Both the position numbers and the translations under genes were made by a program. Source: Cloacibacillus sp. (lineage in GTDB: Bacteria > Synergistota > Synergistia > Synergistales > Synergistaceae). Taken from it: a stretch of DNA of 55,887 bases. Location: the NCBI GenBank assembly GCA_036655895.1, contig JAVVPF010000021.1, positions 1 to 55,887 of the forward strand, in the 5' to 3' direction. Every line of letters starts with the position of its first letter. The first letter of the stretch is position 1. Shown here in pieces: positions 23,040 through 55,711 of this stretch. The notes beneath the pieces are model-generated. The model worked only from the letters and a program-made list of their open reading frames with translations, was not told the DNA's origin and searched no databases.

Positions 23040-24458
23040 TTAATCGAAAATTTTACCCGGATTCATAATGCCGTTTGGGTCAAGCGCTGACTTTATCTTC
23101 TTCATCAGCTCTATATTCTGCGGCGGGCAGAGCTTTGCGAAATAGTCGCGGCGTTTGCTGCCGATGCCGTGCTCCCCGCTGATCACGCCGCCCAGCTCGT
23201 AGGTGAGTTTGAATATTTCCCATTCTATCTCAGCCTCCACGCGCTCCCACTCGTCTATCGACATCGCGGCGGGCTTCAAAATGGTTGGATGAAGGTTGCC
23301 GTCGCCCGCATGCCCGAAGTTCGCTATCCTTACGCCGCGGCGCGACTCTATCTCCTGGATGCCGCGCACCATCTCAGGAATTTTTGATATCGGCACTACT
23401 ATGTCCTCGTCCGCCTCGACAGGGTCCGTGACGCGCAGCGCCTCGTCTATGTTGCGGCGCACCGCCCAGATGCGTTCGCGCGTAGAGCGCGTGTCGGCCA
23501 CGTAGATCTCAAGCGCGCCCTCTTTTGAGAGTATCTCGCCGGCGCGCTCTATGTCCATGTCGAGCGCCTCCTGATTTCCGCCGTCCACCTCAACGAGCAG
23601 CGCCGCCTCCACGCCCTCCATCGGCAGCTCTTCGTTGAGGAAGCCGCAGGCCTTTGTGTAACAGTAGGCGTCCATGTATTCTATCGAAGAGGGCACGACG
23701 CCGCTTCCCGTCATCATCTTCGGCACGGCGCGTATCGCGGTCTCTGTGTCGGAAAAGAGTGCTAGCAGCGCGGCGCGGCTGTTCAAGAGCGGCTGAAGGC
23801 GCAGGATTATCTTCGTCACATATCCGAGAGTCCCCTCCGAACCCACAAAAAGTTCTTTCAGGCTGTAGCCGGAGACGTCCTTCATCAGCTTGCCGCCAAG
23901 CGTTATGATCTCGCCGGTGGGGAGCACCACCTCAAGGCCTACCACATAACGCATCGTGACGCCGTACTTGACTGCGTTTCCGCCGCCCGCGTTTTCCGCG
24001 ACGTTCCCGCCGATGTGGCAGGAGAGCACGCTCATCGGGTATCCTGTGTAGGCCAGCCCCTTTTCCGCGGCGGCCGCGTTTATCTCGCTTGTGATTACGC
24101 CTGGTTCCGTTACTGCGACAAGGTTTTCCGCATCTATTTCGATTATATGGCAGAGGCGTTCGTCTGAAATTACGATCCCGCCGTGCAGCGGAAGCGCGCC
24201 TCCCGAAAGTCCGGTGCCGCCGCCGCGCGGAGTGACCGGGACTTTGCTTCGGTTTGCTATTTTTAATATTTCGGAGACCTGGCCCGCGTCGCACGGAGCC
24301 ACGACTACCTCCGGCATGTACCGCTGTTCGGCCCTGAGCGTCAGCGTCTCGTCGCGCGAACAGGCCTCGCGCTTTTCTTCCGAGGTCCAGACGTTTGCTG
24401 CGCCGACCGCGTCCGCCAGCTGCTCTATTATCTCTTTCGTTACATATCCATATTCCAA
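23040..24458 (-). CDS. glcD: FAD-linked 2-hydroxyacid oxidase/dehydrogenase, GlcD-like
   Basis: This 472-aa member of the vanillyl-alcohol-oxidase fold oxidises D-2-hydroxyacids such as glycolate or lactate. The FAD-binding signature PVTPRGGGTGLSGGA is at about residues 74-88, followed by AVTEPGVITSEIN and GGNVAENAGGG. The C-terminal catalytic region has NFGHAGDGNLHPTIL and GVISGEHGIGSKRRDYF. The start is TTG at 24458, 9 nt after GGAG; no in-frame ATG exists nearby. It stands alone here, without GlcE/GlcF or an EtfAB pair, so its electron acceptor is unknown. A link to the hydroxyacid locus at 29-32 kb is possible but unproven. Confidence 0.9.
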   Translation of the reverse strand: MEYGYVTKEIIEQLADAVGAANVWTSEEKREACSRDETLTLRAEQRYMPEVVVAPCDAGQVSEILKIANRSKVPVTPRGGGTGLSGGALPLHGGIVISDERLCHIIEIDAENLVAVTEPGVITSEINAAAAEKGLAYTGYPMSVLSCHIGGNVAENAGGGNAVKYGVTMRYVVGLEVVLPTGEIITLGGKLMKDVSGYSLKELFVGSEGTLGYVTKIILRLQPLLNSRAALLALFSDTETAIRAVPKMMTGSGVVPSSIEYMDAYCYTKACGFLNEELPMEGVEAALLVEVDGGNQEALDMDIERAGEILSKEGALEIYVADTRSTRERIWAVRRNIDEALRVTDPVEADEDIVVPISKIPEMVRGIQEIESRRGVRIANFGHAGDGNLHPTILKPAAMSIDEWERVEAEIEWEIFKLTYELGGVISGEHGIGSKRRDYFAKLCPPQNIELMKKIKSALDPNGIMNPGKIFD

Positions 24459-27090: not shown

Positions 27091-28278
27091 CTATTTTTTC
27101 ATGCCTTCGACGGCCGCCTTGATTCTTTTCATACCCTCTTCGATGTAGTCATACTCGCGGCAGTAGGCAAGACGTATATGGCCCGGCATTCCAAAAACTT
27201 CGCCCGGCACCGCGGAGACTCCGGCCTCTTCGAGCAGCCATGAACAGAAGGCAAAGCCGTCCATTCCGAGCGCGCTTATCCGCGGGAAGGCGTAAAAAGC
27301 GCCGGTGGGCGTGATAGCCTCAAAACCCTCTATATTATTGAGCCACTTCGTCACCATGTCGCGGCGGCGCTTGTACTCCGCCACCATCTTTTTGACGTCC
27401 TCGCCGGCCTCGGTCAAGGCGACCGCAACGCCTGCCTGCGCGAACGCGTTGGCGCAGGTGGTGAGGTTCTGGTGGCACTTATTGACGTAGGGGCACATAG
27501 CCTTCGGCGCTATTATCCATCCGATGCGCCAGCCTGTCATCGACCATGTCTTTGACGCGGCGGAGACCGTCACAGTGCGCTCCGCCATTCCCGGAAGGCT
27601 TGCGATGCTCACATGCTCGCCGTCGTAGAGGAACTTTTCATAACATTCGTCGGAGATGACCCAGAGGTCCTTTTCTATGGCAAGCGCCGCTATCTCTTCC
27701 AGGTCCGCGCGTGAGAGCACCGCGCCGCTTGGGTTGTTCGGAGAATTTATGAGCAGCACCTTCGTCTTCGGAGAGACGAAGGCTGCGATATCCGCCGCGC
27801 GAAGCCTGAAACCGTTTTCCATCGTAGTCGGGATTGCCGTAAGCACAGCTCCCGTAAGCGCAATCTCGTCGGCGTAGGCCGAGAAGTACGGCGCTGGGAT
27901 CAGCACCTCGTCGCCCGGGTCAAGCAGCGTCAGCAAAGAGGCCGTAAGCGCCTCCATCGCGCCGTTTGTAATGACGACGTTCTTGTCGGCGTCTACCTCC
28001 ATGTTGTTTTCCGCGCGGTATTTCGCGGCGACGGCCTTACGGAGATCCTCCGCGCCCTGCATATTAGTGTAATGTACGTTGCCGGCGTCAAGCGCGCGCT
28101 TGACCGCCTCTTTGGCGCACTGCGGCGAGTCGAAGTCGGGACGCCCCAGCTCCATGTGGATTATGCTCTTGCCGGCGGCCTCCAGTTCGTCCGCGCGGCC
28201 GAGTATCTCGCGTATGCCTCCGGCCATTGCGATAGATTCCATACGTTTGTTCGGGAATTTCATTTTAGTTGTCATCAT
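27091..28278 (-). CDS. PLP-dependent aminotransferase, class I (aspartate aminotransferase-like)
   Basis: This 395-aa fold-I aminotransferase has LINSPNNPSG (substrate and PLP ring contacts), SDECYEKFLYDG (PLP N1 Asp), and SKTWSMTGWRIGW with the PLP lysine. The N-terminal pattern IHMELGRPDFDSP fits the Iγ subgroup. It would exchange amino groups between amino acids and 2-oxo acids, the first step of amino-acid fermentation. The GGGAGG lies 7 nt before the first of two adjacent ATGs. It lies just downstream of the GntR regulator gene, same strand, 83 nt away, so the regulator may affect it. Confidence 0.92.
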   Translation of the reverse strand: MMTTKMKFPNKRMESIAMAGGIREILGRADELEAAGKSIIHMELGRPDFDSPQCAKEAVKRALDAGNVHYTNMQGAEDLRKAVAAKYRAENNMEVDADKNVVITNGAMEALTASLLTLLDPGDEVLIPAPYFSAYADEIALTGAVLTAIPTTMENGFRLRAADIAAFVSPKTKVLLINSPNNPSGAVLSRADLEEIAALAIEKDLWVISDECYEKFLYDGEHVSIASLPGMAERTVTVSAASKTWSMTGWRIGWIIAPKAMCPYVNKCHQNLTTCANAFAQAGVAVALTEAGEDVKKMVAEYKRRRDMVTKWLNNIEGFEAITPTGAFYAFPRISALGMDGFAFCSWLLEEAGVSAVPGEVFGMPGHIRLAYCREYDYIEEGMKRIKAAVEGMKK

Positions 28279-28361: not shown

Positions 28362-29024
28362 CTACCGAAGGAAATAATCCTTCATTATATAACCTTCGCT
28401 GTTTACCACATGGTCGTAAAGACATTGATAGAGCAGCTTGGGATTTCGTTCCTTTATACAGTTGATTATCTTCACATGCTGCTCCAGAGAATTTTTGATA
28501 TCGGCGAGCGACTGCACCGAAAGCCGCTGGAAGCGTTTTATCTGTACATGATAATTGTCCAAGATAACGCCGATGCGCTTGTTGGTGGCGTACTTGGAAA
28601 TGGTGAAATGCAGCGCGAGATCGAGATCCGCCACACGCGACATATCAAGCGGGAGGCCTTTTCTTTCAAGCTCGCAAAGCTCCGCCCACTGAACGTCAAG
28701 CTCGCCGATCACGGCATCCGGTATGCGGTTTGCCGCCGTGAGAGCGGCGAACGGCTCAAGCAGCTTTCTTATATCATATATCTCGCGCACGTCTTCCAAA
28801 GATATTTCTGAGACAAAGGCGCCCTTTAGCGGGACTATCTTTATGTAGCCGTCCTGTTCGAGCACGCGCAGCGCCTCGCGTACAGGCGTGCGGCTCACAC
28901 CAACTTCATTTGCAAGCCATGTTTCAGGCAGAGGTTCGCCCATTTTAAGCCGCCCCGCGTCCACGCCGTCCTTTATCCAATCATAGGCCTTTATCCAGAC
29001 TGCTTTGTCGTTTTTATTTGCCAT
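28362..29024 (-). CDS. GntR family transcriptional regulator, FCD (FadR-C-like) subfamily
   Basis: The protein is 220 aa. The winged helix at about residues 1-75 has GEPLPETWLANEVGVSRTPVREALRVLEQDGYI, the GntR recognition-helix signature. A helical FCD ligand-binding domain follows, with metal-binding histidines plausible in LALHFTISKYAT, LDNYH and SLEQHVKII. Ligands of this subfamily are mostly organic acids. I choose the ATG at 29024; a GTG four codons earlier overlaps the ribosome site GGAGAG. The gene is divergent from the larA-acnX-TRAP unit, and identical palindromes lie on both sides of the divide. Confidence 0.92.
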   Translation of the reverse strand: MANKNDKAVWIKAYDWIKDGVDAGRLKMGEPLPETWLANEVGVSRTPVREALRVLEQDGYIKIVPLKGAFVSEISLEDVREIYDIRKLLEPFAALTAANRIPDAVIGELDVQWAELCELERKGLPLDMSRVADLDLALHFTISKYATNKRIGVILDNYHVQIKRFQRLSVQSLADIKNSLEQHVKIINCIKERNPKLLYQCLYDHVVNSEGYIMKDYFLR

Positions 29025-29056
29025 GCAGCAATTCACTCTCCATATTTAGTACATGC

Positions 29057-29064
29057 TGTATACA
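29057..29064. promoter_or_regulatory. TGTATACA operator at the GntR gene
   Basis: The perfect palindrome TGTATACA lies directly after a minus-strand promoter (TGGACA, 16 bp, TATAGT, the -10 being the complement of about 29071-29076). It would cover the transcription start, which fits autoregulation. Confidence 0.6.
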
Positions 29065-29140
29065 TCTACTATAATGATTTTTTGATTTTTGTCCATACTT
29101 ACGGCGCTTTAATCAACGAAAGTGCCCTTTGATTTACGTC

Positions 29141-29169
29141 TTGACAATTATCGTGCACACTATTATTAT
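29141..29169 (+). promoter_or_regulatory. Promoter of the larA-acnX-TRAP operon
   Basis: TTGACA at 29141-29146, a 17-bp spacer, and TATTAT at 29164-29169. A second palindrome, GTGCAC, lies in the spacer at 29153-29158. The leader to the LarA start is about 120 nt. Confidence 0.65.
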
Positions 29170-29245
29170 CTTTTTATAAAAATCCAGATGATTTAACATG
29201 ACGGCATATACAAAATCAGTTGTGTGGATTTAAAGTTTTTAGTCT

Positions 29246-29253
29246 TGTATACA
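29246..29253. promoter_or_regulatory. TGTATACA operator upstream of the larA-like gene
   Basis: This is the same 8-bp palindrome as in front of the GntR gene, here about 77 nt downstream of the predicted -10 and 45 nt before the LarA ATG. That position suits a roadblock repressor or a second promoter. Confidence 0.6.
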
Positions 29254-29297
29254 GATTGCGTACTGCAAAAAACAATATTTGATTGGAGTGGCGGGCA

Positions 29298-30587
29298 ATG
29301 AAATATACGATCCCCTACGGAAAAACGACCGTAGAATTTGAGACGAAGGGCCGGACCGTCCTCTTTAACGGAGAGACGACCTGCCTGCCTGCGACGCCGG
29401 ATTTTAAAAACGACCTTCTTGCCGCGCTTGCCGCGCCCATCGCCTCGTTGCCGCTCGCGGAACTTGCGCGCGGCAAAAAAAATATCCTTTTCCTTGTAGA
29501 AGACAACACGCGCGACACGCCCCTTGACCTAATGCTTCCTATCATAGCCGACTATTTGAACGCGCACGGCGTGCCCGACGCGAATGTCAGTTTTATGACC
29601 GCACCCGGAACGCACCGCGTTATGACGGACGAAGAGGTGGAAAAAAAGCTCGGCCCGGAGATAGTGCGCCGCTTCCGCGTCTACCAGCACGACGCCACGA
29701 AGAGCGAAGATATTGAGGATCTCGGCGAAATAGAGGTCGCCGGCTACAAACTGCCGGTCCACATAAACCGCAGGGCGCTTGAGGCCGACCTTCTCGTCGG
29801 CGTCGGCAACATCGTGCCGCACAGCGACGCCGGTTTTTCGGGAGGCGCGAAGATAGTTCAGCCAGGCGTCTGCGATTTCGTCACAACACAGGCGACGCAC
29901 AGAGGCGCGGGGCTTTGCTCCGACATTCCTCTTGGCATGGAAAGCGGCAACCCGTGCCGCATGGGAATAGACGCCGTAGGCAGAATGGCGCGTCTTGCCT
30001 TTATCATCAACGTGGTAAAAAACTATAACGACGAAGTGACCGGCTTTTTCTGCGGCGACTGCATTGAGGCGCACCGCGCCGGAGTGGCCGCGGCAAAGGA
30101 TTCTTACAGCGTAAAGATAGAAGAACAGGCCGACATCGTCGTGGCAAGCTCCTCGCCTGACGACATCGACTTCTGGCAGGGCATCAAGGGGCTTACCGCG
30201 GCCTATTTCGCCGTGAAGCCCGGCGGCGTGATAATACTGGCCGCTCCGTGTTCGGAGGGGCTTGTACATAATCATCCGCTCTACGCTCACTGGCTCGGAA
30301 GCTCCGAAGAGGAGATAAAAGCCGCGATAGAAGAGGCCTCCCCTTACGATATGGAGACGGACACCATCTCCGCGGTGGTGGCGCTCGGCAGCAGACGCGT
30401 GCTAAAACGCGCTTCGGTCTACATGATGAGCGGCGGCCTTTCCAACGAAGCAATAAAAGCGATGGACTATATCCCCGTAGATTCAATACAAGAGGCGCTT
30501 GACGTAGCGCTTGCCGAAAGGCCCGGCGCTACGATAGGCATCCTGCCAAAAGCCGGCATCTCATTGCCCATAGTGATAAAGAGATAA
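29298..30587 (+). CDS. LarA-family nickel-pincer-dependent 2-hydroxyacid racemase/epimerase
   Basis: The protein is 429 aa. Lactate racemase uses a nickel-pincer nucleotide bound to a lysine. All four residues known from Lactiplantibacillus LarA (H108, H174, K184, H200) have counterparts here: H106 in TAPGTHR, H175 and K185 in IVPHSDAGFSGGAKIVQPG, and H201 in ATHRGAG. The enzyme should therefore be active if the cofactor is supplied. LarA homologues act on lactate, malate, 2-hydroxyglutarate, phenyllactate and sugar acids, so the substrate here is open. The ATG at 29298 lies 9 nt after GGAG. Aconitase X genes follow after 21 nt. LarB, LarC and LarE are not in the window. Confidence 0.9.
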   Translation: MKYTIPYGKTTVEFETKGRTVLFNGETTCLPATPDFKNDLLAALAAPIASLPLAELARGKKNILFLVEDNTRDTPLDLMLPIIADYLNAHGVPDANVSFMTAPGTHRVMTDEEVEKKLGPEIVRRFRVYQHDATKSEDIEDLGEIEVAGYKLPVHINRRALEADLLVGVGNIVPHSDAGFSGGAKIVQPGVCDFVTTQATHRGAGLCSDIPLGMESGNPCRMGIDAVGRMARLAFIINVVKNYNDEVTGFFCGDCIEAHRAGVAAAKDSYSVKIEEQADIVVASSSPDDIDFWQGIKGLTAAYFAVKPGGVIILAAPCSEGLVHNHPLYAHWLGSSEEEIKAAIEEASPYDMETDTISAVVALGSRRVLKRASVYMMSGGLSNEAIKAMDYIPVDSIQEALDVALAERPGATIGILPKAGISLPIVIKR

Positions 30588-30608
30588 AATATAGAAAGGC
30601 GGTATCAC

Positions 30609-31826
30609 ATGTTTTTAACTGATGAAGAAAAACGGATACTCGACGGAGCCGAAGGCGTTGGAAGACAGAAGGCTATGGAGCTGCTTTACGCGCTCGGCCT
30701 CACCTTTGACGCGGAAAAGCTCATCCCCGTCAAACGCGCTCACGTTGCTTTGAGCGGCCAGGAGGGCGACACCTACTGGTGCGAACTGCTCGTAAACGGA
30801 GGCGCGGTATGCGCGGTGCCCCCGACGACGAACCCCTACTGGGACACCCGCTACCTGACGAAGTTCTTCGACGTGACGAAGGAAGAACTTGAACTCGCAG
30901 AGCGCACAGGCGACGTCTACCGCCGCATCGGCGCGAAACTCACCTACCACTGCGCGCCCGGCGTCTGCTCAAACGTACCGTTCTTCGGCGAACACATCGC
31001 CTTCTCAGAGTCCAGCGCGACGCCGTACGTCAACTCCGCCATAGGCGCACGCAGCAACCGCGAATCATCGGTGAGCGCGCTCGCCGCGGCTGTCATCGGC
31101 AAGACGCCCTACTACGGCTACCATCTTGACGAAAACAGACACGGAGATTTCCTCGTGGAAGTGGACGCCGATCTGCGCGAAAGCTACGACTGGGGCATAC
31201 TGGGCCACTGCGTCGGCAAGATAGCCGGCTCGCGCAACCCCGTCCTTAAATTCAAAGAAAAGCCGCGTCCGCGTCCCGAAGATTTCCTTTATTTCGGCGC
31301 CGAGGCCGCGACGAGCGGAGCTGTAGCTATGTACCACATGGTTGGAGTGACGCCTGAGGCGCCGACCATCGAAGCCGCCTTCGGAGGCAGGAAGATCCCG
31401 TCCGCCGAATACGTCATCACAAACAAAGAGCTCAAGGCCGAAGAGGATTCTCTGACGCCGGCGACCGGCAAGATCAACCTCGTCATGCTTGGATGCCCTC
31501 ACTACACCTACGACCAGCTTCTTGAAGTGGAACGGCTCTTTGCGGGAAGGCACTGCGACAACGGCACGGCCTTCTGGATACTCGCCGAGTCGGGCGCGGT
31601 GGAGCTTGCGGAGCGTTCACACCTGCGTCAGCGCCTTGAACTGCTGGGCGTCCGCATGGTCGGAGACACCTGCATAGACGAGCCCTGCTGGAAATCGTTC
31701 GAAGGGGCGCTTGGCGTCACCGACTCTCCGAAGTGCGCCTATTACCGCGAACGCCGCGGCCAGCCATTCGCCATCCGCAGGCTTTCGGAATGTGTAGAGG
31801 CAGCAGTAAAAGGGAGGCTCGACTAA
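30609..31826 (+). CDS. Aconitase X catalytic (large) subunit
   Basis: This 405-aa protein was formerly grouped as DUF521. The family motifs are clear: APGVCSNVPFFGEHIAFSESSA, YVNSAIGARSNRES, ALAAAVIGKTPYYGYHLDENR, and LGCPHYTYDQLLEVERLF near the C-terminus. Known members dehydrate cis-3-hydroxy-L-proline (bacteria) or mevalonate 5-phosphate (archaea), using an Fe-S cluster. It is the split (type II) form, with the small subunit encoded next. The gene stop overlaps the next ATG (TAATG), so the subunits are made together. Its pairing with a LarA homologue suggests a hydroxy acid other than hydroxyproline, but this is inference. Confidence 0.9.
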   Translation: MFLTDEEKRILDGAEGVGRQKAMELLYALGLTFDAEKLIPVKRAHVALSGQEGDTYWCELLVNGGAVCAVPPTTNPYWDTRYLTKFFDVTKEELELAERTGDVYRRIGAKLTYHCAPGVCSNVPFFGEHIAFSESSATPYVNSAIGARSNRESSVSALAAAVIGKTPYYGYHLDENRHGDFLVEVDADLRESYDWGILGHCVGKIAGSRNPVLKFKEKPRPRPEDFLYFGAEAATSGAVAMYHMVGVTPEAPTIEAAFGGRKIPSAEYVITNKELKAEEDSLTPATGKINLVMLGCPHYTYDQLLEVERLFAGRHCDNGTAFWILAESGAVELAERSHLRQRLELLGVRMVGDTCIDEPCWKSFEGALGVTDSPKCAYYRERRGQPFAIRRLSECVEAAVKGRLD

Positions 31827-32254
31827 TGGATAACATGAAAACGTATAAATGCCGTTCGATAGTGCGCGGAAGCGGCGCGGGCGAGGCCGTCGTATCAAAG
31901 GACGCGATGTGCTTCTATCTGACAGACCCAAAGACCGGCGTCGTCATTGAAAGAAACCACGCCATCCAGGGCAAAAGCATCGCCCACAAGATACTTGTGG
32001 TGCAGTCGGGCAAGGGAAGCTCCGTCGTACAGGTCGACGGCTTCTACCAGCTCTGGGTAAAGGGCAACCTTCCGGCGGCCATAATCGTAAGAGAAGCAGA
32101 ACCGGTAATAGTTTCATCCGCGGTCGTAGTCGGCTCGACAATGGTAGACCGTCTTGAGGCGGACCCTTTTGAGGCCATCGAAGACGGCGACTATGTAGAG
32201 GTCGACGCGGACGCGCAGGAAGTCCGCGTATGGAAGGGAGGAAAGCGCGCATAA
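31826..32254 (+). CDS. Aconitase X swivel (small) subunit, DUF126
   Basis: This 142-aa protein corresponds to the mobile swivel domain that closes over the aconitase X active site. Visible motifs are TDPKTGVVIERNHAIQGKSI, KILVVQSGKGSS, LPAAIIVREAEP and SSAVVVGSTMVDRL. The serine in GKSI is the expected substrate contact. An ATG overlapping the large-subunit stop follows GGGAGG by 8 nt. A longer in-frame reading back to 31733 lies inside the large-subunit gene and is not needed. Confidence 0.9.
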   Translation: MDNMKTYKCRSIVRGSGAGEAVVSKDAMCFYLTDPKTGVVIERNHAIQGKSIAHKILVVQSGKGSSVVQVDGFYQLWVKGNLPAAIIVREAEPVIVSSAVVVGSTMVDRLEADPFEAIEDGDYVEVDADAQEVRVWKGGKRA

Positions 32255-32310
32255 GACCCGTTGGCAGCTTTATTGACTCATCAAACTAATAAACAGGGAG
32301 GAACATTGTA

Positions 32311-33294
32311 ATGAAAAAACTTCTGGCAGCAGTTATGTTCATGGCAATAATGACAGCGTCCGCGGCCTTCGCGGCGCCTGAGTACACCATCAAGGTAGGC
32401 TACATCGGCTCTGACACGCATCCCACGATGCAGGCGATGAAGGTCTTCGCGAAGGACGTAGACAAAGGCTCAAAGGGAAAGATCAAAGTCGAACTTTACC
32501 CGAACGCCCAGCTCGGCGGCGACCGCGAACTGACCGAAGCGGTGCAGATGGGCACGATCCAGATGGCCATCCCCTCAACTTCAGCTCTCGCCGGCTTTGA
32601 CAAGAGAGTCCAGGTACTTGACCTGCCGTACCTCTTCACAACAAGAAAAGCGGCTTTTGACGCGGTTGACGGAGAACTTGGCAAAAAACTCAACTCCTAT
32701 CTCGATAAAAAAGGCTTCACGATCCTTGGATACCAGGAAAACGGCTTCCGCCACGTAACGAACAGCAAGAGGCCCGTCAAGACCCCGGCAGACCTTAAGG
32801 GACTGAAGATCCGCACAATGGAAAACCCGATGCACATAGCCTACTTCAAGGCGCTCGGCGCAAACCCCACGCCCATGAGCTGGGGCGAGCTTTACACCGC
32901 TCTTCAGCAGGGCACAGTTGACGCGCAGGAAAACCCCTACGCAATGATCGACGACGGCAAATTCTACGAAGTCCAGAAATTCGTCTCGGAGACCGGACAC
33001 GTCTTCTCCTATGAAGTGCTCATCGCCAACAAGAAGTTCATGGACAAACTCCCGAAGGACCTCCGCAACCTCGTGACGGAGTCCGCGGTGAAGGCCATCA
33101 AGATGCAGCGCAGCCTCCTCGAAAAAGAAGAAGCCAACTTCAAAGCCAAGGTCGTCAAGGCCGGCATGAAGGCGAACTCCCTCACAGCGGCTGAGAAGAA
33201 GCCGTTTGTAGAGGCGACGAAGGCTGTTTACAAGCAGTTTGAAGGCGATCTCGGCAAGGAAATCATGGACATCGCAAGAAAGGTTCAGAAATAG
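32311..33294 (+). CDS. dctP: TRAP transporter solute-binding protein (DctP family)
   Basis: This 327-aa periplasmic protein has a signal peptide (MKKLLAAVMFMAIMTASAAFA). The DctP fold motifs follow: GGDRELTEAVQMGTIQMA, DLPYLF, and KGLKIRTMENPMH with the conserved arginine that binds the substrate carboxylate. Next come WGELYTALQQGTVDAQENP and the long C-terminal helix. It delivers an organic acid to DctQM. A GGGAGG precedes the ATG. It follows the aconitase X genes by 56 nt and is followed by an intercistronic terminator, which would give excess binding protein over membrane subunits. Confidence 0.95.
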   Translation: MKKLLAAVMFMAIMTASAAFAAPEYTIKVGYIGSDTHPTMQAMKVFAKDVDKGSKGKIKVELYPNAQLGGDRELTEAVQMGTIQMAIPSTSALAGFDKRVQVLDLPYLFTTRKAAFDAVDGELGKKLNSYLDKKGFTILGYQENGFRHVTNSKRPVKTPADLKGLKIRTMENPMHIAYFKALGANPTPMSWGELYTALQQGTVDAQENPYAMIDDGKFYEVQKFVSETGHVFSYEVLIANKKFMDKLPKDLRNLVTESAVKAIKMQRSLLEKEEANFKAKVVKAGMKANSLTAAEKKPFVEATKAVYKQFEGDLGKEIMDIARKVQK

Positions 33295-33310
33295 CACCTT
33301 TTCTGACGAC

Positions 33311-33350
33311 AATGCGCGCCCTCATCCCAACAGGAGGGCGCGCATTTTTA
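33311..33350 (+). terminator. Intercistronic terminator between dctP and dctQ
   Basis: A perfect 13-bp stem (AATGCGCGCCCTC / GAGGGCGCGCATT) is followed by TTTTA. It lies between genes of one operon, so it likely acts as a partial terminator. Confidence 0.8.
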
Positions 33351-33381
33351 ACACAAGCAAGCGGACAGGGAGGTTTGCATC

Positions 33382-33897
33382 ATGACCGTTAAAAAATTTT
33401 TGGACAACTTTGAAGAATATTTTTGCGTTTGGACCATGGCCATAATGACGGTTCTCGTCTTTTTTCAGGTCGTAATGAGGTATGTATTTTCAAATTCGCT
33501 CTCATGGAGCGAGGAGCTGGCGCGTTTTATATTTCTCTGGCTTTCGTGGATAGGAGCAAGCTACGCCGTAAAAGAGCGCAGCCATTTTCGCGTTGAGATG
33601 TTCGCCAATATGGTAAAGGGCAGAGCTCGCGTTTATTTTGAATACTTCGTTCTCATAGTCTGGTTCGTTTTCAGCTTTATACTGACGTGGCTCGGCACAG
33701 AACTCGTCGTCTTTCTGTACGATACGGGGCAGGCGTCGTCCGCTATGGACATCCCCATGACGTGGCCCTACGCCTCCGTGCCGGTCGGATGCGCGCTTAT
33801 GTGCATAAGGCTCGTCGTAGAAATGTACAAGCTTTACAAGGGAGAGCCGTTAGGCCCCAAACAGACAAAAGAACAGGAAATAGAGGAGATGATATAG
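33382..33897 (+). CDS. dctQ: TRAP transporter small membrane subunit (DctQ family)
   Basis: This 171-aa protein has four hydrophobic helices. Family motifs are VVMRYVFSNSLSWSEELARF and FLWLSWIGASYAVKERSHFRVEM. It pairs with DctM to form the Na+-driven carrier. AGGGAGG lies about 8 nt before the ATG. Its stop is followed after one base by the DctM start. A second, closely similar copy is at 36520-37020. Confidence 0.93.
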   Translation: MTVKKFLDNFEEYFCVWTMAIMTVLVFFQVVMRYVFSNSLSWSEELARFIFLWLSWIGASYAVKERSHFRVEMFANMVKGRARVYFEYFVLIVWFVFSFILTWLGTELVVFLYDTGQASSAMDIPMTWPYASVPVGCALMCIRLVVEMYKLYKGEPLGPKQTKEQEIEEMI

Positions 33898-33898
33898 C

Positions 33899-35179
33899 AT
33901 GGAAGCTATTATACTATTCTCTCTGCTCATAGTTACCATCGCTATGAGCATCCCAATAGGCATAACGCTTGGCATATCCACCGGCCTCGCCATGTGGCTC
34001 ACCTCGGACATACCGATGCTGATGCTGGCTCAGAAATCAGTGACGGGGCTGGATTCATTCCCGCTACTCGCCATCCCCTTCTTCATATTGGCGGGAGCGC
34101 TCATGTGCAACGGCGGCATCTCGCGCCGTCTCGTAAACCTCGCTGAGAGCCTCGTAGGTTACATCACCGGCGGCCTTGCGATGGTCACCGTGCTTGCCTG
34201 CATGTTCTTCGCCGCCATCTCTGGCTCAGGCCCCGCTACAGTATCGGCCATAGGCTCCTTCATGGTGCCCTCGATGAAAGAACGCAAGTACGACGCAGGC
34301 TTTGCCGCGGCCATCACGGCGGCCGCCGGCACGATAGGCGTAATAATCCCGCCTTCAATACCATTCGTCATCTACTGCATCGTAGCCCAGTGCTCGATAG
34401 GCGACATGTTCATAGCGGGCATCGTGCCCGGCGTCATGATAGGTATAGCGCTGATGCTCGTCTGCTACTGCACCGCGAAAAAACGCCACTACGTCAGCGT
34501 CGCGCAGCGTCCCAAACTTGCCGACGTGTGGAGATCGTTCAAAGAGGCCTTCTGGGCGCTGCTCGTTCCCGTCATCATCCTTGGCGGCATCTACGGCGGC
34601 ATCTTCACGCCGACGGAAGCGGCGGTCGTAGCGGTCGTCTATTCCGTATTCATCGGAAAATTCATATACAAAGAACTTGACGGCAAGACGCTCTATGAAT
34701 GTCTGCGCACAACGGGCCTCATCAACGGCGCGACAGAGTTCATGATAGGCCTTTCCATGGCCTTCGCAAGCTACCTTGCAATGGCGCAGATACCGGCGCA
34801 CATCGCATCGTGGATGACGAGCCTTGCGCATACGCCCTTTATGCTGCTTATGGTAATAAATATTTTCCTGCTCATCATAGGCTGCTTCGTGGACAATATT
34901 GCCGCCGTCATCATCCTTACGCCGATACTGCTTCCCGTCGTGAAGGCCATAGGCATAGACCCGATACATTTCGGGCTTATCATCACCGTCAACCTCGCCT
35001 GCGGCTTCATCTCGCCGCCCTACGGCATAAACCTCTTCGTGGCCTCCGCCATCTCGGGAGAGAGCATCGAAACTATCTCAAAGGCTATACTTCCGTCGTT
35101 CTTCGCGATGGTCGCCTGTCTTCTGCTCTTCACCTACTTCCCCATTTTCTCAATGGGGCTGCTCAGCCTGATCCGATAA
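33899..35179 (+). CDS. dctM: TRAP transporter large membrane subunit (DctM family)
   Basis: This 426-aa protein has about 12 helices. DctM landmarks include FPLLAIPFFILAGALM, FFAAISGSGPATVSAIGS, ITAAAGTIGVIIPPSIPFVIY and GIFTPTEAAVVAVVY, with FGLIITVNLACGFISPPYG in the second half. These form the transport core. It completes the first DctPQM system. Compared by eye, it differs from the second copy at about 49 of 426 positions. Confidence 0.95.
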   Translation: MEAIILFSLLIVTIAMSIPIGITLGISTGLAMWLTSDIPMLMLAQKSVTGLDSFPLLAIPFFILAGALMCNGGISRRLVNLAESLVGYITGGLAMVTVLACMFFAAISGSGPATVSAIGSFMVPSMKERKYDAGFAAAITAAAGTIGVIIPPSIPFVIYCIVAQCSIGDMFIAGIVPGVMIGIALMLVCYCTAKKRHYVSVAQRPKLADVWRSFKEAFWALLVPVIILGGIYGGIFTPTEAAVVAVVYSVFIGKFIYKELDGKTLYECLRTTGLINGATEFMIGLSMAFASYLAMAQIPAHIASWMTSLAHTPFMLLMVINIFLLIIGCFVDNIAAVIILTPILLPVVKAIGIDPIHFGLIITVNLACGFISPPYGINLFVASAISGESIETISKAILPSFFAMVACLLLFTYFPIFSMGLLSLIR

Positions 35180-35183
35180 CAGG

Positions 35184-35230
35184 CGCGCGCGGGAAATATT
35201 CTTCGGATATGCTCCCGCGCGCGTTTCTTT
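35184..35230 (+). terminator. Terminator after the first TRAP operon
   Basis: A 10-bp GC stem (CGCGCGCGGG / CCCGCGCGCG) with a 20-nt loop is followed by TTTCTTTT. Confidence 0.75.
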
Positions 35231-35248
35231 TGATGACAATATGACGCC

Positions 35249-35280
35249 TTCACATTAAAATCTAACATTATAAATGTGAA
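35249..35280. promoter_or_regulatory. Inverted repeat in front of the formate/nitrite channel gene
   Basis: TTCACATT (35249-35256) and AATGTGAA (35273-35280) form an 8-bp inverted repeat with 16 nt between, just before the ribosome site. It looks like an operator, or a weak leader hairpin. The cognate regulator is unknown. Confidence 0.4.
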
Positions 35281-35296
35281 CAGGGGGATTTTTTTT

Positions 35297-36133
35297 ATGA
35301 GCTGCAAAACGCCGGCAGAAATTGCCGAATGCGCGGTCAACGCCGCGGTGAACAAAAGCAGGCTTCCGCTCTCCGTGATGTCCGTCATGGGATTTCTCGC
35401 CGGAGCCTATATAGCCATGGGCGGCTATTTTATGACGATCGTCACACAGGACGCCTCGGCCTTTGTGGGAGTAGGGCTTTCGAAGCTCGCGGGCGGCATA
35501 GTCTTCGCGCTTGGGCTGCTGCTCGTGGTGGGCGCAGGCGGCGAACTCTTTACCGGAAACTGCCTCATGCCAATAGGCGTGCTCTCAAACAGGTGTTCGT
35601 GGAGCGGGCTTCTGCGCAACTGGAGCGTAGTCTATCTGACAAACATGGCGGGCGGCCTCTTTTTTGCGCTGCTCATATACAAAAGCGGCGGTATCTCCGA
35701 CAAGGCCGCCGAGACCGCGCTCAACATAGCGGCCGCGAAAGTTTCGATTCCCATAGCTCAGATGATAGTACGCGGCATATTGTGCAACTGGTTCGTCGGG
35801 CTTGCCGTCTGGCTTGCCTTCGGCGCGACGGACATGGCCGGAAAATATATCGCCTGTCTTGTACCGATATCGGCCTTCGTTGCGATGGGCTTTGAACACT
35901 GCATAGCAAACATGTACTTCATCGGCCTCGGCATCATGCTGAAGGGCGACACCGCGCTCATTGAAAGACTCTCCTACCCCGCAGACAAACTTGCGGGAAT
36001 AAATCTCTGCGGCTACCTGAACAACCTCATACCGGTGACACTTGGAAACATTCTGGGCGCCGCGCTGCTTGTCGCGTGCCTCTACTTCGTAGCCTTCAGA
36101 AAATCTCTCACCGACGGCGCCAAAATCTCGTAA
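35297..36133 (+). CDS. Formate/nitrite transporter family channel (FNT)
   Basis: This 278-aa protein has six hydrophobic helices of the aquaporin-like FNT fold. Signatures are FLAGAYIAMGGYFMTIV, GGELFTGNCLMP, RGILCNWFVGLAVWLA and EHCIANMYFIGLGI. FocA and NirC are the best-known members; others carry hydrosulfide or acetate. The ATG at 35297 is preferred over a GTG seven codons upstream because GGGGG lies at the right distance. In this genome formate arises from the histidine/formyl-THF route at 44-55 kb, so export of formate is a reasonable guess. It stands as a single gene with its own terminator. Confidence 0.9.
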   Translation: MSCKTPAEIAECAVNAAVNKSRLPLSVMSVMGFLAGAYIAMGGYFMTIVTQDASAFVGVGLSKLAGGIVFALGLLLVVGAGGELFTGNCLMPIGVLSNRCSWSGLLRNWSVVYLTNMAGGLFFALLIYKSGGISDKAAETALNIAAAKVSIPIAQMIVRGILCNWFVGLAVWLAFGATDMAGKYIACLVPISAFVAMGFEHCIANMYFIGLGIMLKGDTALIERLSYPADKLAGINLCGYLNNLIPVTLGNILGAALLVACLYFVAFRKSLTDGAKIS

Positions 36134-36154
36134 AACAATTTATCTGTATACCTC

Positions 36155-36203
36155 TGCGGCAAACGGCCTCTTTGCTTCTCATGCAAGCAGGCCGTTTGCC
36201 GCA
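36155..36203 (+). terminator. Terminator after the FNT gene
   Basis: A perfect 15-bp stem (TGCGGCAAACGGCCT / AGGCCGTTTGCCGCA) has a smaller TTGC/GCAA stem in its loop. It is followed by TATTC only, so it is strong in stem and weak in T-run. Confidence 0.65.
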
Positions 36204-36322
36204 TATTCGCCGCGTTATCCCCTCAAGCCGCAAAGAGCCGCACTCTTGTCGTTATTTCGCATATTATTAACGATTTATTAAGTATTTTACGCAATTATCA
36301 ATAATTCCCATATATTATAACC

Positions 36323-36351
36323 TTGACTTTTGATATACCTCAGAATATTAT
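36323..36351 (+). promoter_or_regulatory. Promoter of the second dctQM unit
   Basis: TTGACT at 36323-36328, a 17-bp spacer, and TATTAT at 36346-36351. The spacing and -10 are the same as in the larA operon promoter. Confidence 0.6.
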
Positions 36352-36457
36352 GCATCTTAATAACTGACACGAATTAGTTCTTCTTTGACAATTTCATGTT
36401 TTTTGATAAGCATGATCCAACAGCGGTATGAAGAAAGGAGACTTTAAACGATTTAGC

Positions 36458-36465
36458 TGTATACA
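36458..36465. promoter_or_regulatory. TGTATACA operator upstream of the second dctQM unit
   Basis: This is the third intergenic copy of the palindrome found at the GntR and larA promoters. It lies about 105 nt downstream of the predicted -10 and 55 nt before the dctQ ATG. Confidence 0.55.
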
Positions 36466-36519
36466 TAAGGAATACCGAAAACGAAAGAAATAATGACTTT
36501 TGTGGGAGGAATCGTTTCT

Positions 36520-37020
36520 ATGTGGAAGTTCATCGACAATTTTGAAGAATATTTCTGTGTGTGGACCATGGCCATCATGACCATCCTGGTCTTTATACAG
36601 GTTGTGATGCGCTACGTCTTTTCCAATTCGCTGTCGTGGAGCGAAGAACTTGCCAGATATATTTTTCTGTGGCTCTCATGGATAGGTGCAAGCTACGCCG
36701 TGAAGGAACGCAGCCATTTCCGCGTCGAGATGTTCGCCAATATGATAAAGGGCAGCGCGCGCCGCTTCTTTGAAGCCTTCGTGCTCATCGTGTGGTTTCT
36801 TTTCAGCTTCGTGCTGGCGTGGCTCGGCACAGACCTCGTTCTTTTCCTCGCGGAGAGCGGACAAAATTCGTCGGCTATGGAGATACCGATGACGTGGGCC
36901 TACGCCGCGGTGCCTGTAGGATGCGCGCTTATGTGCTTCAGACTTTTGATAGAGATGTACAAACTGTGGAAGGGCGAACCCTTCGGACCAAAAACTGACA
37001 ACGTGGAGGAGATCTGCTGA
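36520..37020 (+). CDS. dctQ: TRAP transporter small membrane subunit (DctQ), second copy
   Basis: The 166-aa protein closely matches the DctQ at 33382-33897, including MRYVFSNSLSWSEELARY and IGASYAVKERSHFRVEMFANM. Differences gather in the last helix and the C-terminal tail. I start it at 36520, 9 nt after GGGAGGA, since the upstream ATG at 36493 has no ribosome site. Its TGA overlaps the DctM ATG (TGATG). No DctP gene precedes it. Confidence 0.9.
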   Translation: MWKFIDNFEEYFCVWTMAIMTILVFIQVVMRYVFSNSLSWSEELARYIFLWLSWIGASYAVKERSHFRVEMFANMIKGSARRFFEAFVLIVWFLFSFVLAWLGTDLVLFLAESGQNSSAMEIPMTWAYAAVPVGCALMCFRLLIEMYKLWKGEPFGPKTDNVEEIC

Positions 37021-38300
37021 TGGAAGCGGTAATCGTATTCTCTATATTGATAGTAACGATAGCGCTCAGCATTCCCATTGGGATCACGCTGGGCCTTGCT
37101 ACGGGACTTGCCATGTGGCTCACCTCCGACATCCCGATGCTGATGCTGGCTCAGAAATCCGTGACGGGACTGGACTCCTTTCCGCTGCTTGCCATTCCGT
37201 TCTTCATTCTGGCGGGAGCGCTCATGTGCAGCGGCGGCATCTCGCGCCGCCTTGTGAACCTGGCGGAAAGCCTCGTAGGTTTCATCACGGGCGGCCTTGC
37301 GATGGTTACGGTGCTTGCCTGCATGTTCTTTGCCGCCATCTCAGGCTCCGGGCCGGCGACCGTATCGGCCATCGGCTCTTTCATGATCCCATCCATGAAG
37401 GAACGCAAATATGACGCGAGCTTCGCGGCGGCCATCACCGCCGCCGCCGGCACCATCGGAGTAATAATCCCGCCCTCGATACCGTTCGTCATTTACTGCG
37501 TCGTCGCGCAGTGCTCCATCGGCGACATGTTCATAGCGGGCATCGTTCCCGGCCTCATCATCGGCTTCGCCCTGATGTTTGTCTGTTTCTGCACAGCTAA
37601 AAAAAGACATTACGTCAGCCTCGCCTCGCGCCCCAAGTTCTCAACGGTGTGGAAGGCCTTCACTGAAGCGATATGGGCGCTGATGGTGCCGGTCATAATT
37701 CTCGGCGGCATCTACGGTGGCATCTTCACTCCGACGGAGGCGGCGGTCGTAGCGGTCGTCTACTCGGTCTTCATCGGAAAGTTCATATACAAGGAACTTG
37801 ACAATAAATCCCTCTACGAGAGCCTTCGCCTCTCAGGGCTGATCAACGGAGCTACGGAGTTCATGATAGGCCTCTCAATGGCCTTCGCGAGCTACCTGAC
37901 GATGGCGCAGATACCGTACCACATCGCCCAGTGGCTCACGGGATTTGCCGACAACCCGTTCATGCTGCTTATGATAATCAACGTATTCCTTCTCATCATA
38001 GGGTGCTTTGTGGACAACATCGCAGCGGTCATCATATTGACGCCCATCTTGCTGCCTGTCGTAAAAAGCATAGGCATAGACCCGATACATTTTGGGCTTA
38101 TCATCACCGTCAACCTCGCCTGCGGCTTCATCTCGCCGCCCTACGGCATAAACCTTTTCGTAGCCTCCGCCATCTCGGGAGAGAGCATAGAAAACATTTC
38201 AAAGGCCATACTGCCCTCCTTCCTCGCAATGGTGGCCTGCCTGCTGCTCTTTACCTACTTTCCTATATTCTCGCTTGGACTGCTGCACTGGATGGGATAA
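37020..38300 (+). CDS. dctM: TRAP transporter large membrane subunit (DctM), second copy
   Basis: The 426-aa protein has exactly the same length as the DctM at 33899-35179, with roughly 88 percent identity by eye. Differences are mostly conservative and cluster at the middle loop (residues about 198-220), residues about 305-325, and the last four residues. The transport motifs are all intact. Lacking its own binding protein, it probably depends on the DctP encoded at 32311, or on one elsewhere. Confidence 0.93.
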   Translation: MEAVIVFSILIVTIALSIPIGITLGLATGLAMWLTSDIPMLMLAQKSVTGLDSFPLLAIPFFILAGALMCSGGISRRLVNLAESLVGFITGGLAMVTVLACMFFAAISGSGPATVSAIGSFMIPSMKERKYDASFAAAITAAAGTIGVIIPPSIPFVIYCVVAQCSIGDMFIAGIVPGLIIGFALMFVCFCTAKKRHYVSLASRPKFSTVWKAFTEAIWALMVPVIILGGIYGGIFTPTEAAVVAVVYSVFIGKFIYKELDNKSLYESLRLSGLINGATEFMIGLSMAFASYLTMAQIPYHIAQWLTGFADNPFMLLMIINVFLLIIGCFVDNIAAVIILTPILLPVVKSIGIDPIHFGLIITVNLACGFISPPYGINLFVASAISGESIENISKAILPSFLAMVACLLLFTYFPIFSLGLLHWMG

Positions 38301-40706: not shown

Positions 40707-41611
40707 ATGAAGACACCTTTTGAAAAAATCGTAGATATAAACGCCGTAGGCCGCGCGGACAACAGCGTCGGCATTGGAGAGCTGTTTTCTCTCGCGGAGG
40801 CGGAAAGGACGGCGCTCGCCCCAGAGAACGGGGCGCGGACGCTGCTGCTTGCGGTCGACGTGCAGCGTGACTTTATGGACGGCGGCGTGCTCGGAGTAAA
40901 CGGCGCGCTTGACGATGTGCGGCGGCTGACGCGCTTCATGTATGACAACATGGAAAATATAACCGAGATAGCCGTCACGATGGACACGCACGCACCGCAG
41001 CAGATATTCCATCCCTGCTGGTGGCGGGGCGAAGACGGCGCGGCACCGGCTCCGTTTACCGTCATCACAAAAGACGACCTCGACCTCGGGCGCTGGACGC
41101 CGCTCTTTGAACCAAAAGAAAGCGCCGCCTACCTTGTTTTTTGGGCGCCGCCGGCAAAAAGCGCCTCTGTATCTGGCCCTATCACTGCATCGCCGGCACC
41201 ACCGGCGCGGCGCTTGAAAACCAGTTCTCCAACATGGCGCACTTTTTTTCAATCGTAAAGGGCGTCTCCGTCAAGAAAATCATCAAGGGCACGCTGCCAG
41301 CGACGGAATTTTACGGCGCAGTGCGCCCCGAATACTCCCCAAACGGACTCTACACCAACGACGCGCTGCTTGACGTCATAAAAAGCTGCCGCAGGGTCGT
41401 CATCGCGGGCGAGGCGAAGGACTACTGCGTCTACGAAACTGTGCGTCAGATATTTGAAGAGCTTGAAAACGAACCGCAGAAACCGGAGATATTCATACTA
41501 GAGGACTGCACAAGCAGCATCCAGTCCCCGGAGGAGGCCGCCGCGCTCTACAGCGGCCTTGCGGAAAAATACGCCTTCCACCTTGTAAGAAGCACCGACA
41601 AATTTTTATAA
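40707..41611 (+). pseudogene. Isochorismatase/nicotinamidase-like cysteine hydrolase, broken by a frameshift
   Basis: Two frames together give a protein of about 301 aa. The first (ATG 40707) has the catalytic Asp in LLLAVDVQRDFMDGG and MDTHAPQQIFHPCWW, and runs to about YLVFW. The second resumes at GAAGKKRLCIWPYHCIAGTTGAAL and holds the nucleophile Cys in VVIAGEAKDYCVYET. The break is at a run of six T residues (41137-41142); a seventh T would restore YLVFLGAAGKKRL. The family hydrolyses amides such as nicotinamide or carbamoylated compounds. It is either a recent pseudogene or a homopolymer error. A normal ribosome site is not obvious. Confidence 0.75.
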
Positions 41612-44120: not shown

Positions 44121-45794
44121 TTAGAAGAGGCCGGAGACCTTTCCGCTGGCGTCTACGTCTATGTTGCAGGCGGCGGGGCGTTTCGGCAGTCCGGGCATCG
44201 TCATTATGGAACCGGTTATCGGGATGATGAATCCAGCGCCGGCGGAAAGACGCACTTCGCGCACTGTCAGCGTGAAGTTTGTGGGGCGACCCTTTTTGTT
44301 CGGGTCGTCCGAGATGGAGGACTGCGTCTTGGCCATGCAGATGAGCAAGCCGTCTTTGCCAAGGTCGTGGATTTTCTTAAGGTCTTTCACGGCTTTGTCT
44401 GTGAAGGCAACTCCGTCTGCTCCGTATATCTTTGTGGCGATGGTCTCTATTTTTTCTTTCGGGGAGAGGTTTTCGTCGTAGAGATAGTGGAAGGTGTTCG
44501 GCTTATCGCAGGCTTTGATGACTTCCTGCGCCATTTCAAGACCGCCTTCGCCGCCTTTGGCCCAGATGTCGGATTCCACGACGGGAACGCCGAGCTTCGC
44601 GCATTTGTCCTGGATGAATTTCAGCTCTTCGGCCGTGTCGGTCGGGAAGGCGTTGAGCGCGACAACTACGGGCAGACCGAAGGAGAGCATGTTTTCGACG
44701 TGCTTTTCGAGGTTCGGGATGCCGGCTTCGAGCGCCGCCATGTTAAGCTTGCCGAGGTCTTCTTTCGCGACGCCGCCGTGCATCTTAAGAGCGCGGATGG
44801 TGGCTACTATGACGACCGCGTTCGGCTTGAGGCCTCCGAGACGGCACTTGATGTCGAGGAATTTTTCAGCGCCGAGGTCGGCGGCGAATCCAGCCTCCGT
44901 GACGAAGTAATCCGCAAGTTTCAGACCGTATTTTGTCGCCATGATGCTGTTGCATCCGTGCGCGATGTTCGCGAAGGGGCCGCCGTGGATGAAGGCGGGG
45001 ACGTGTTCGAGGGTCTGCACGAGGTTCGGCTTGATGGCGTCTTTAAGGAGCATCGCCATTGCGCCGTGCGCTTCGAGTTCGCGCGCTGTGACGGGTTTGT
45101 CGTCGTAGGTGTAGGCGACGATTATGTTGGCGAGGCGCTCTTTGAGGTCTGTGATGTCCTTTGAGAGGCAGAGTATCGCCATTACTTCGGAGGCGACTGT
45201 GATGTCGAAGCCGTCTTCGCGGGGCACGCCGTTTGGCTTGCCCCCAAGTCCGATGACGATGTCGCGCAGTGTGCGGTCGTTCATGTCAAGGACGCGCTTT
45301 AACGCTATCTTGCGTGTGTCTATGTTGAGGGGGTTGCCCTGCTGCACGGAGTTGTCGAGCATCGCCGCGAGAAGGTTGTGCGCGGAGGTGATGGCGTGGA
45401 AGTCGCCCGTGAAGTGGATGTTGATGTCTTCCATCGGCACTACCTGGCTGTATCCGCCGCCGGCGGCTCCGCCTTTTACTCCGAATACGGGACCGAGCGA
45501 GGGTTCACGAAGGGCTACGCATGATTTTTTGCCAAGTTTCGCAAGCGCCTGCGCAAGTCCGACGGAGGTCGTCGTCTTGCCTTCCCCCGCAGGAGTCGGG
45601 GTGATTGCGGTGACAAGTATCAGCTTGCCGTCTTCGTTATCCTTTACTTTGTCCCAGAGGCCAAAGGATACCTTCGCTTTATATTTTCCGTAAAGTTCAA
45701 GATCATCTTCCGAGACGTCCAGTTTTTTGGCGACCTCGACAATGGGCTGCATCTGCGCCTGCTGCGCGATTTCAATATCACTCAGAAAAGCCAT
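44121..45794 (-). CDS. fhs: Formate-tetrahydrofolate ligase
   Basis: The 557-aa enzyme interconverts formate + ATP + THF and 10-formyl-THF. The P-loop is [20 protein letters not shown] at about residues 66-85. Other family stretches are [34 protein letters not shown] and [10 protein letters not shown] at the C-terminus. Here it follows the hut genes, so in vivo it probably runs in reverse: formyl-THF from histidine is split to formate with ATP gain. AGGAG lies 9 nt before the ATG. It has its own leader with a possible promoter and hairpin, so it may also be expressed independently for one-carbon supply. Confidence 0.97.
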
Positions 45795-50602: not shown

Positions 50603-50657
50603 AAAAAACATCTCCTTTTTGTTATTAAGTGCCGTAACACGTATTTGTAAGTTGATG

Positions 50658-50683
50658 TTTATATAATAAACGGCCCCTGTCAA
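50658..50683 (-). promoter_or_regulatory. Candidate promoter of the hutU-hutI-fchA-ftcD unit
   Basis: On the minus strand a perfect TTGACA (complement of 50678-50683) is followed after 14 bp by TATAAA (complement of 50658-50663). The spacer is short, which could mean weak or activator-dependent transcription. Confidence 0.35.
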
Positions 50684-55644: not shown

Positions 55645-55711
55645 CGTTATTTCTCCCTTCATTGATTAAGCCCCCCGGCAAAACCTATGACGAATCTTAG
55701 AAATCGCTTAC

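Follow-up and report, generated by a model that had tools for sequence, protein, structure and literature searches.

Gene content and predicted regulation of the locus

The window analysed here, a 55,887-nt stretch of DNA from the anaerobic bacterium Cloacibacillus sp., carries a predicted catabolic locus in which genes for a LarA homologue, both subunits of aconitase X (AcnX) and a tripartite ATP-independent periplasmic (TRAP) transporter lie side by side, and a variant histidine utilization (hut') operon is found further along the same stretch. Domain calls relied on Pfam, and they confirmed the gene set proposed in an earlier sequence-only reading of this DNA (GntR/FCD regulator, LarA, split AcnX and DctPQM), with the catalytic residues retained. 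A tight plus-strand run comprises LarA (29283-30587, with Lar_N and LarA_C domains), a homologue of nickel-pincer 2-hydroxyacid racemases/epimerases, the AcnX large subunit (30609-31826, 400 bits), the AcnX small or swivel subunit (31823-32254, sharing 4 bp with the end of the large-subunit gene), the solute-binding protein DctP (32311-33294), DctQ (33382-33897) and DctM (33899-35179). The GntR/FCD regulator, a likely local repressor, is encoded divergently on the minus strand (28362-29036).

The 55,887 bases contain exactly three copies of the motif TGTATACA, for an expected number of 0.13, and none of 100 shuffles reached three. Two copies, predicted to be GntR operators, flank the GntR-LarA intergenic region, on the GntR side (29057-29064) and on the LarA side (29246-29253), and occupy the same positions in L091, L092, L095, L096, L097, L099 and L101. 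The third copy (36458-36465) lies upstream of a second DctQ-DctM pair. Given this placement and conservation, a predicted GntR regulon consisting of the LarA-AcnX-TRAP genes and the extra membrane pair is well supported.

This second pair (DctQ, 36493-37020, from Pfam; DctM, 37020-38300, from its sequence and the gene order of relatives; both plus strand) has no DctP of its own. As the pair has its own copy of the motif and is kept in L091 and L092, both membrane pairs may rely on the same DctP. Between the two transporter sets lies a FocA-type formate/nitrite transporter gene (35276-36133, plus strand, from Pfam), kept in L076, L091 and L092. On the other side, a class I aminotransferase gene (27091-28278, minus strand) follows GntR co-directionally after 83 bp, and its counterparts in L076 and L091 share about 77% identity and an equal position. 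FocA and the second DctQM lie within the span covered by the sequence-only reading, which did not mention them; the aminotransferase and the hut' operon lie outside it.

LarA and AcnX subgroups

The LarA homologue retains all seven cofactor and catalytic residues (D72, R75, H108, H174, K184, H200 and K298, in L. plantarum numbering), in agreement with the earlier view of it as a nickel-pincer enzyme with its key residues. Other parts of the host genome encode LarB, LarC1 and LarC2 (together LarC) and LarE, which allows synthesis of the nickel-pincer cofactor. The best-scoring NCBIfam model is the LarAH6 malate racemase, with 293 bits for a cut-off of 500, and the scores for lactate racemase (274 bits, cut-off 460), LarAH10 (270 bits, cut-off 540) and the LarAH5 malate racemase (243 bits, cut-off 462) also stay below their thresholds. 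At position 176, two residues past the catalytic His174, nearly all AcnX-linked copies carry Asp, accompanied in nearly all of them by Trp at 294; Mar2 has Lys here (K173) and LarA proper has Phe. Distant LarA proteins of the second type met in the survey, NCBIfam isomerase group 22, show Asp at the 176 position too. In the window protein, positions 358/359 are V-V, and its complete specificity signature, H-S-D / W / V-V, fits none of the characterised LarA groups used for comparison (PMC7583248, PMC11770544). It is a member of the family that lies outside every characterised subgroup.

These residues bear on a malate or tartrate system, in which LarA would racemise malate and AcnX would dehydrate malate or tartrate. 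The top NCBIfam model points that way, as does Mar2, the best PDB match, and TRAP carriers are generally known to transport C4-dicarboxylates in many cases. Nevertheless, the model score falls short of its cut-off, the malate-binding H/Q-K pair is replaced by V-V, and Mar2 K173 corresponds to Asp, which makes malate racemase identity unlikely and the whole system very improbable. For similar reasons, a free-standing system for a hydroxy-dicarboxylate or sugar acid, compounds that the sequence-only reading proposed for screening, is not supported, as LarA lacks the H/Q-K pair and has Asp176, and relatives of the locus are linked to hut genes (see below).

Two other LarA-type genes can be recorded. 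The PDB matches of a divergent LarA (L005) to TAL repeats were discarded as an artefact of simple repeats. A second LarA-type gene of genome G000, of the group-22 kind (G000:C44:6200-7495, L132), has DctP and a sodium symporter nearby but no AcnX.

AcnX passes the PF04412 cut-off and has the swivel subunit, iron-sulfur (Fe-S) cysteines and catalytic Ser/Glu/Lys expected of its family. The large subunit carries the cluster cysteines C115, C296 and C355 along with E134, S135, K375 and Y379, a set of cysteine and Glu/Ser/Lys/Tyr residues matching that of the T. kodakarensis enzyme, and the small subunit carries the catalytic Ser motif GKGSS. The phosphate-binding loop of mevalonate 5-phosphate dehydratase (G48-V49-S50-N53) is deleted. 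The equivalent of Asp203, which binds the proline nitrogen in the hydroxyproline enzyme, is Ala, and the NCBIfam model of the latter enzyme gives 209 bits for a cut-off of 700. As the landmark residues of both are missing, AcnX belongs to neither characterised type, a result that supports the sequence-only reading. It is a family member of no characterised subgroup, perhaps from among the subclasses IIc-IIf, which PMC8184944 gives as uncharacterised. Within its clade, H45 is invariant, and so is D54 (54 of 54 sequences), located near the lost phosphate loop of the mevalonate enzyme.

Conservation of the LarA-AcnX-TRAP unit

Relatives were surveyed in 188 Synergistota genomes and a few Bacillota loci. 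AcnX scored above the cut-off in 57 of the 188 Synergistota genomes, at about 79 places. In a maximum-likelihood tree of 88 AcnX large subunits, the window protein falls in a 55-member clade (support 100/100), divided into subclade A (31 members, including that of the window) and subclade B (24 members). The archaeal mevalonate-phosphate enzymes fall outside this clade, as do the hydroxyproline enzyme of Agrobacterium and a further clade of 23 members whose partners differ. At 37 of the 57 loci of the window's AcnX clade, a gene for LarA or group-22 LarA is found on the AcnX strand no more than 8 kb away, versus 0 of 25 other AcnX loci (Fisher p = 4e-9, a value that counts related genomes and so overstates independence). 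Similarly, a TRAP DctP gene stands beside AcnX at 34/57 clade loci versus 0/25 others, and a D-2-hydroxyacid dehydrogenase gene is present in 7 of the 20 clade loci devoid of LarA. The adjacency of LarA and AcnX is not due to chance, and it is nearly certain that LarA-AcnX-TRAP forms a conserved unit; the sequence-only reading had proposed looking for this co-occurrence, and it is indeed found. Its further remark that no described pathway combines the two enzymes also held: a literature search, which did not cover the supplementary gene-context table of PMC7583248, found, among the papers covered, none joining LarA with AcnX.

The search was extended to 26 genomes around the Tepidanaerobacteraceae member, with one other, distant match, and to 391 genomes of G017's class, seven of which had matches, the close new ones including a locus linked to TRAP and D-2-hydroxyacid dehydrogenase genes (L147).

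Other AcnX genes have different neighbours. Those of L105, L110, L128 and L129 adjoin divergent aromatic-lyase homologues (32-38% identity to HutH'), with molybdenum hydroxylases alongside in L105 and L110 and trimethylamine-methyltransferase-like genes in L128 and L129; these are perhaps further AcnX pathways. A separate AcnX clade (L094, L104, L106, L108, L114, L118, L120 and L121) has serine-dehydratase-alpha-like proteins as neighbours and, in most cases, ornithine-cyclodeaminase-like proteins and TRAP genes as well; it lacks the hydroxyproline Asp. Apparent AcnX fusions (about 1000 aa in L063 and L066, 546 aa in L067) were rejected as out-of-frame readings, since tblastn resolved them into distinct genes for GntR, D-2-hydroxyacid dehydrogenase and AcnX.

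The hut' operon and its linkage to LarA-AcnX

A complete operon, HutH'-regulator-HutU'-HutI-FchA-FTCD-FTHFS, runs on the minus strand from 55662 to 44121, 5.8 kb past the second DctM. It encodes a variant histidine ammonia-lyase (HutH', 54118-55662; TIGR01225, 653 bits, cut-off 539), a 1023-aa BTAD/AAA/TPR regulator (50842-53913) that lies between HutH' and HutU' and accompanies them in L086, L090 and L150, a variant urocanate hydratase (HutU', 48884-50683; TIGR01228, 605 bits, cut-off 375) and imidazolonepropionase (HutI, 47489-48736; TIGR01224, 340 bits, cut-off 298). These are followed by formimino-tetrahydrofolate cyclodeaminase (FchA, 46904-47470), named by its sequence and operon position and kept in the linked hut operons, glutamate formiminotransferase (FTCD, 45977-46870), whose homologues at linked loci match Pfam FTCD, and formate-tetrahydrofolate ligase (FTHFS, 44121-45794), whose counterpart adjoins the locus in G159.

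Both variant enzymes depart from the norm in their active sites. In HutH', the active-site His83 is replaced by Asp in all five linked copies (the window, L068, L072, L077 and L086), and His83 is present in all six ordinary HutH proteins compared, some of them from genomes that also have HutH'. The window copy also has Ser-Ser-Gly instead of the Ala-Ser-Gly triad that forms the 4-methylideneimidazole-5-one (MIO) group; close relatives keep Ala-Ser-Gly. In HutU', RDN stands for RDH, and TFES (window) or TDES for NRET. The S-methyl-thiourocanate hydratase 8Q9U departs at the same positions, and the urocanases linked to L017, L059 and L075 retain Arg. S-methyl-thiourocanate might conceivably be the true substrate of HutU', but the protein scores below the cut-off of the corresponding model. 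The altered active sites of HutH' and HutU' suggest that the acrylate linked to these enzymes may be a ring analogue rather than a plain imidazole compound.

Across the survey, at least two hut genes lie within 10 kb of AcnX at 8 of 54 clade loci versus 0 of 25 others. In L103, hut genes sit inside the TRAP operon, in the co-directional order GntR-AcnXL-AcnXS-LarA-DctP-two arginase-family hydrolases-HutI-HutU'-DctQ-DctM; the hydrolases are possibly HutG. In L068 and L072 the order is HutH'-GntR-AcnX-HutU'-D-2-hydroxyacid dehydrogenase-HutI-FchA-FTCD-AcnX2-TRAP, and in L077 a hut cluster contains LarA between two AcnX genes. In L086 and L151, HutH', HutU', D-2-hydroxyacid dehydrogenase, HutI, FchA and FTCD are arranged back to back with AcnX-TRAP, and in G159, which has the same locus, about 1.5 kb separates the second DctM from the end of the same hut' operon. 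The Bacillota locus L017 combines AcnX, D-2-hydroxyacid dehydrogenase, a canonical urocanase, HutI and FTCD, and no HutH was found in its genome. In L059, a urocanase, a flavin enoate-reductase-like protein, LarA and AcnX follow one another, a run that fits a 2-enoate product. Finally, the window DctP belongs to a 16-member clade (support 100/99) along with the DctP proteins of the hut-linked L086 and L090. Taken from gene order and phylogeny, a tie between the LarA-AcnX-TRAP unit and a variant hut pathway is probable.

The idea that AcnX plainly replaces HutH in the window's organism was dropped, as HutH is encoded elsewhere in the genome and HutH' in the window. Such a replacement is possible in G012, G026 and G013/G056, some of these HutH-lacking genomes being incomplete.

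Some further observations were made near these genes. Weak relatives of the BTAD/AAA/TPR regulator are found near AcnX in L022 and L023. Aromatic-lyase (PF00221) matches occur in pieces, in split order and in two neighbouring frames, at G000:C3:108515-110544 and C12:25422-27495, and also in G158. Near the window locus, a GlcD-type flavin adenine dinucleotide (FAD) oxidase gene (23040-24458) shares 44% identity with one paired with LarA-AcnX in L014, and such a gene is close to the locus in L091 as well. Two overlapping open reading frames at 40707-41611 look like a single gene split by a frameshift; they appear isochorismatase-like by eye, the first part having no Pfam match.

A candidate pathway for a histidine-type 2-hydroxy acid

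Several features read from the DNA, namely the genes and their catalytic residues, the cofactor genes, the operator-like sites, the LarA-AcnX-TRAP unit and the physical hut linkage, are best explained by a GntR-controlled module that would import and break down a histidine-type (imidazole-bearing) 2-hydroxy acid, a reading whose chances we judge to be about even. What it adds to these features is that LarA and AcnX would share one substrate, that AcnX would work in the dehydration direction, that the product would enter HutU', and the presumed identity of the acid. DctPQM would import the 2-hydroxy acid, and LarA would invert C2, so that both stereoisomers could be used. AcnX, with an Fe-S cluster (probably [4Fe-4S]) on its three cysteines, would dehydrate the acid to an aryl-acrylate. 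HutU' would hydrate the acrylate and HutI would then open the ring; FTCD and FchA would transfer the formimino group to tetrahydrofolate, with glutamate and formate as end products. FTHFS would yield ATP and formate, and FocA would export the latter; the position of FocA beside the locus fits formate release by FTHFS. HutH' would supply the same acrylate from the amino acid, and in relatives D-2-hydroxyacid dehydrogenase would connect the 2-oxo acid. The order of uptake, inversion and dehydration put forward in the sequence-only reading stays the simplest one, the regiochemistry of the dehydration and the exact substrate being tentative.

Several features guide the choice of substrate. LarA requires a 2-hydroxy acid, and the partner genes, D-2-hydroxyacid dehydrogenase or EtfAB with a GlcD-type oxidase (L060, L062), also indicate one. 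The acidic residues in or near the pockets (LarA Asp176, AcnX D54 and HutH' Asp83) suggest a basic or NH-rich ring rather than a dicarboxylate. In L103, only LarA and AcnX stand between import and HutU', so the simplest view is that AcnX produces the aryl-acrylate on which HutU' would act. Imidazolelactate and urocanate are the leading pair, an assignment that is tentative and would sooner prove wrong than right. About as doubtful is the broader proposal of a coenzyme A (CoA)-independent Fe-S aryl-lactate dehydratase of the aconitase superfamily, converting imidazolelactate to urocanate or a ring analogue, with a nickel-pincer racemase giving access to both enantiomers.

A number of points weigh against the imidazole-bearing acid. 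Hut genes are lacking within 10 kb of most LarA-AcnX-TRAP loci, not one of the three TGTATACA copies in the whole window precedes the hut' operon, the host has an ordinary hut set elsewhere in its genome, and the active sites of HutH' and HutU' are changed. Asp176 is absent from two divergent LarA copies (L019, L059). Aconitase itself handles both regiochemistries. The weakest step is nonetheless the dehydration, since imidazolelactate requires removal of the C2-OH and a C3 proton, the reverse of the characterised AcnX enzymes, which take off the C3-OH and the C2 proton (PMC8184944).

The known AcnX chemistry (PMC8184944) would be preserved in the catabolism of a 2,3-dihydroxy, sugar-acid-like compound, where LarA would epimerise C2 and AcnX would remove the C3-OH and C2-H, leaving a 2-oxo-3-deoxy acid. 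The other diastereomer would be dealt with by an IlvD paralogue, while the 2-oxo acid would go to the aminotransferase or D-2-hydroxyacid dehydrogenase. Such an IlvD gene, suggestive of 2,3-dihydroxy acids and so a further point against an imidazole-bearing acid, adjoins GntR co-directionally in L093, L095, L096, L097, L099, L101 and L102, which come from related genera of one lineage group, and it is an extra copy wherever the genome has several IlvD genes; the aminotransferase behind GntR in the window fits as well. However, the GntR-linked IlvD passes the ordinary IlvD model cut-off, the window locus has no IlvD, and Asp in the pockets of LarA and AcnX is a poor match for such a substrate. 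This explanation also leaves unaccounted for the hut genes inside the L103 operon and neighbouring seven more loci, and is considered unlikely.

A general aryl-lactate route within amino-acid fermentation, in which LarA and AcnX would turn phenyl-, hydroxyphenyl- or indole-lactate into an aryl-acrylate without CoA, draws on a branch of subclade B with IorAB, an ADP-forming acyl-CoA synthetase, D-2-hydroxyacid dehydrogenase and group-22 LarA (L061, L073, L083, L089), and on the enoate-reductase-like protein of L059. Going by this branch, other aryl-lactates may serve elsewhere. For the window it is less probable still than the dihydroxy-acid route, as all of these partners are absent from its branch, whose nearest linked pathway is hut, and imidazole can make the beta proton acidic in a way that a phenyl ring does not.

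Significance and comparison with known systems

The LarA and AcnX families hold many unassigned branches, and each would gain a testable function, their pairing also supplying a definite set of substrates to try. If the imidazole-bearing acid is right, the window's AcnX clade would receive its first function, and histidine degradation would have an entry that does not depend on an ammonia-lyase. Should urocanate be the product, anaerobes including gut and digester Synergistota could enter histidine catabolism by a second route, starting from imidazolelactate. This bears on the clearance of histidine-derived acids; imidazole propionate, made from urocanate, has been linked to disease (PMC13320830).

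The window LarA shares with the LarA superfamily (lactate racemase, Mar2, LarAH10) its fold family, its cofactor and catalytic residues and the need for LarB/C/E, but it scores under all equivalog cut-offs, and its H-S-D and V/V residues match no characterised group. Known AcnX enzymes have the same two-subunit layout (type II) and, in T. kodakarensis, the same cysteine and Glu/Ser/Lys/Tyr set, whereas the window clade is separate (100/100), without Asp203 or the phosphate loop and with invariant H45 and D54. The enzymes of the Hut pathway (HutH-HutU-HutI-FTCD) are present in one operon of the window, although the HutH' and HutU' active sites are altered, and the operon in relatives also holds AcnX, LarA and D-2-hydroxyacid dehydrogenase. 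Finally, the CoA-dependent 2-hydroxyacyl-CoA dehydratase routes of reductive Stickland metabolism likewise lead from an amino-acid-derived 2-hydroxy acid to a 2-enoate, but the genes linked here show no CoA transferase or radical dehydratase and instead include a hydro-lyase of the aconitase superfamily.

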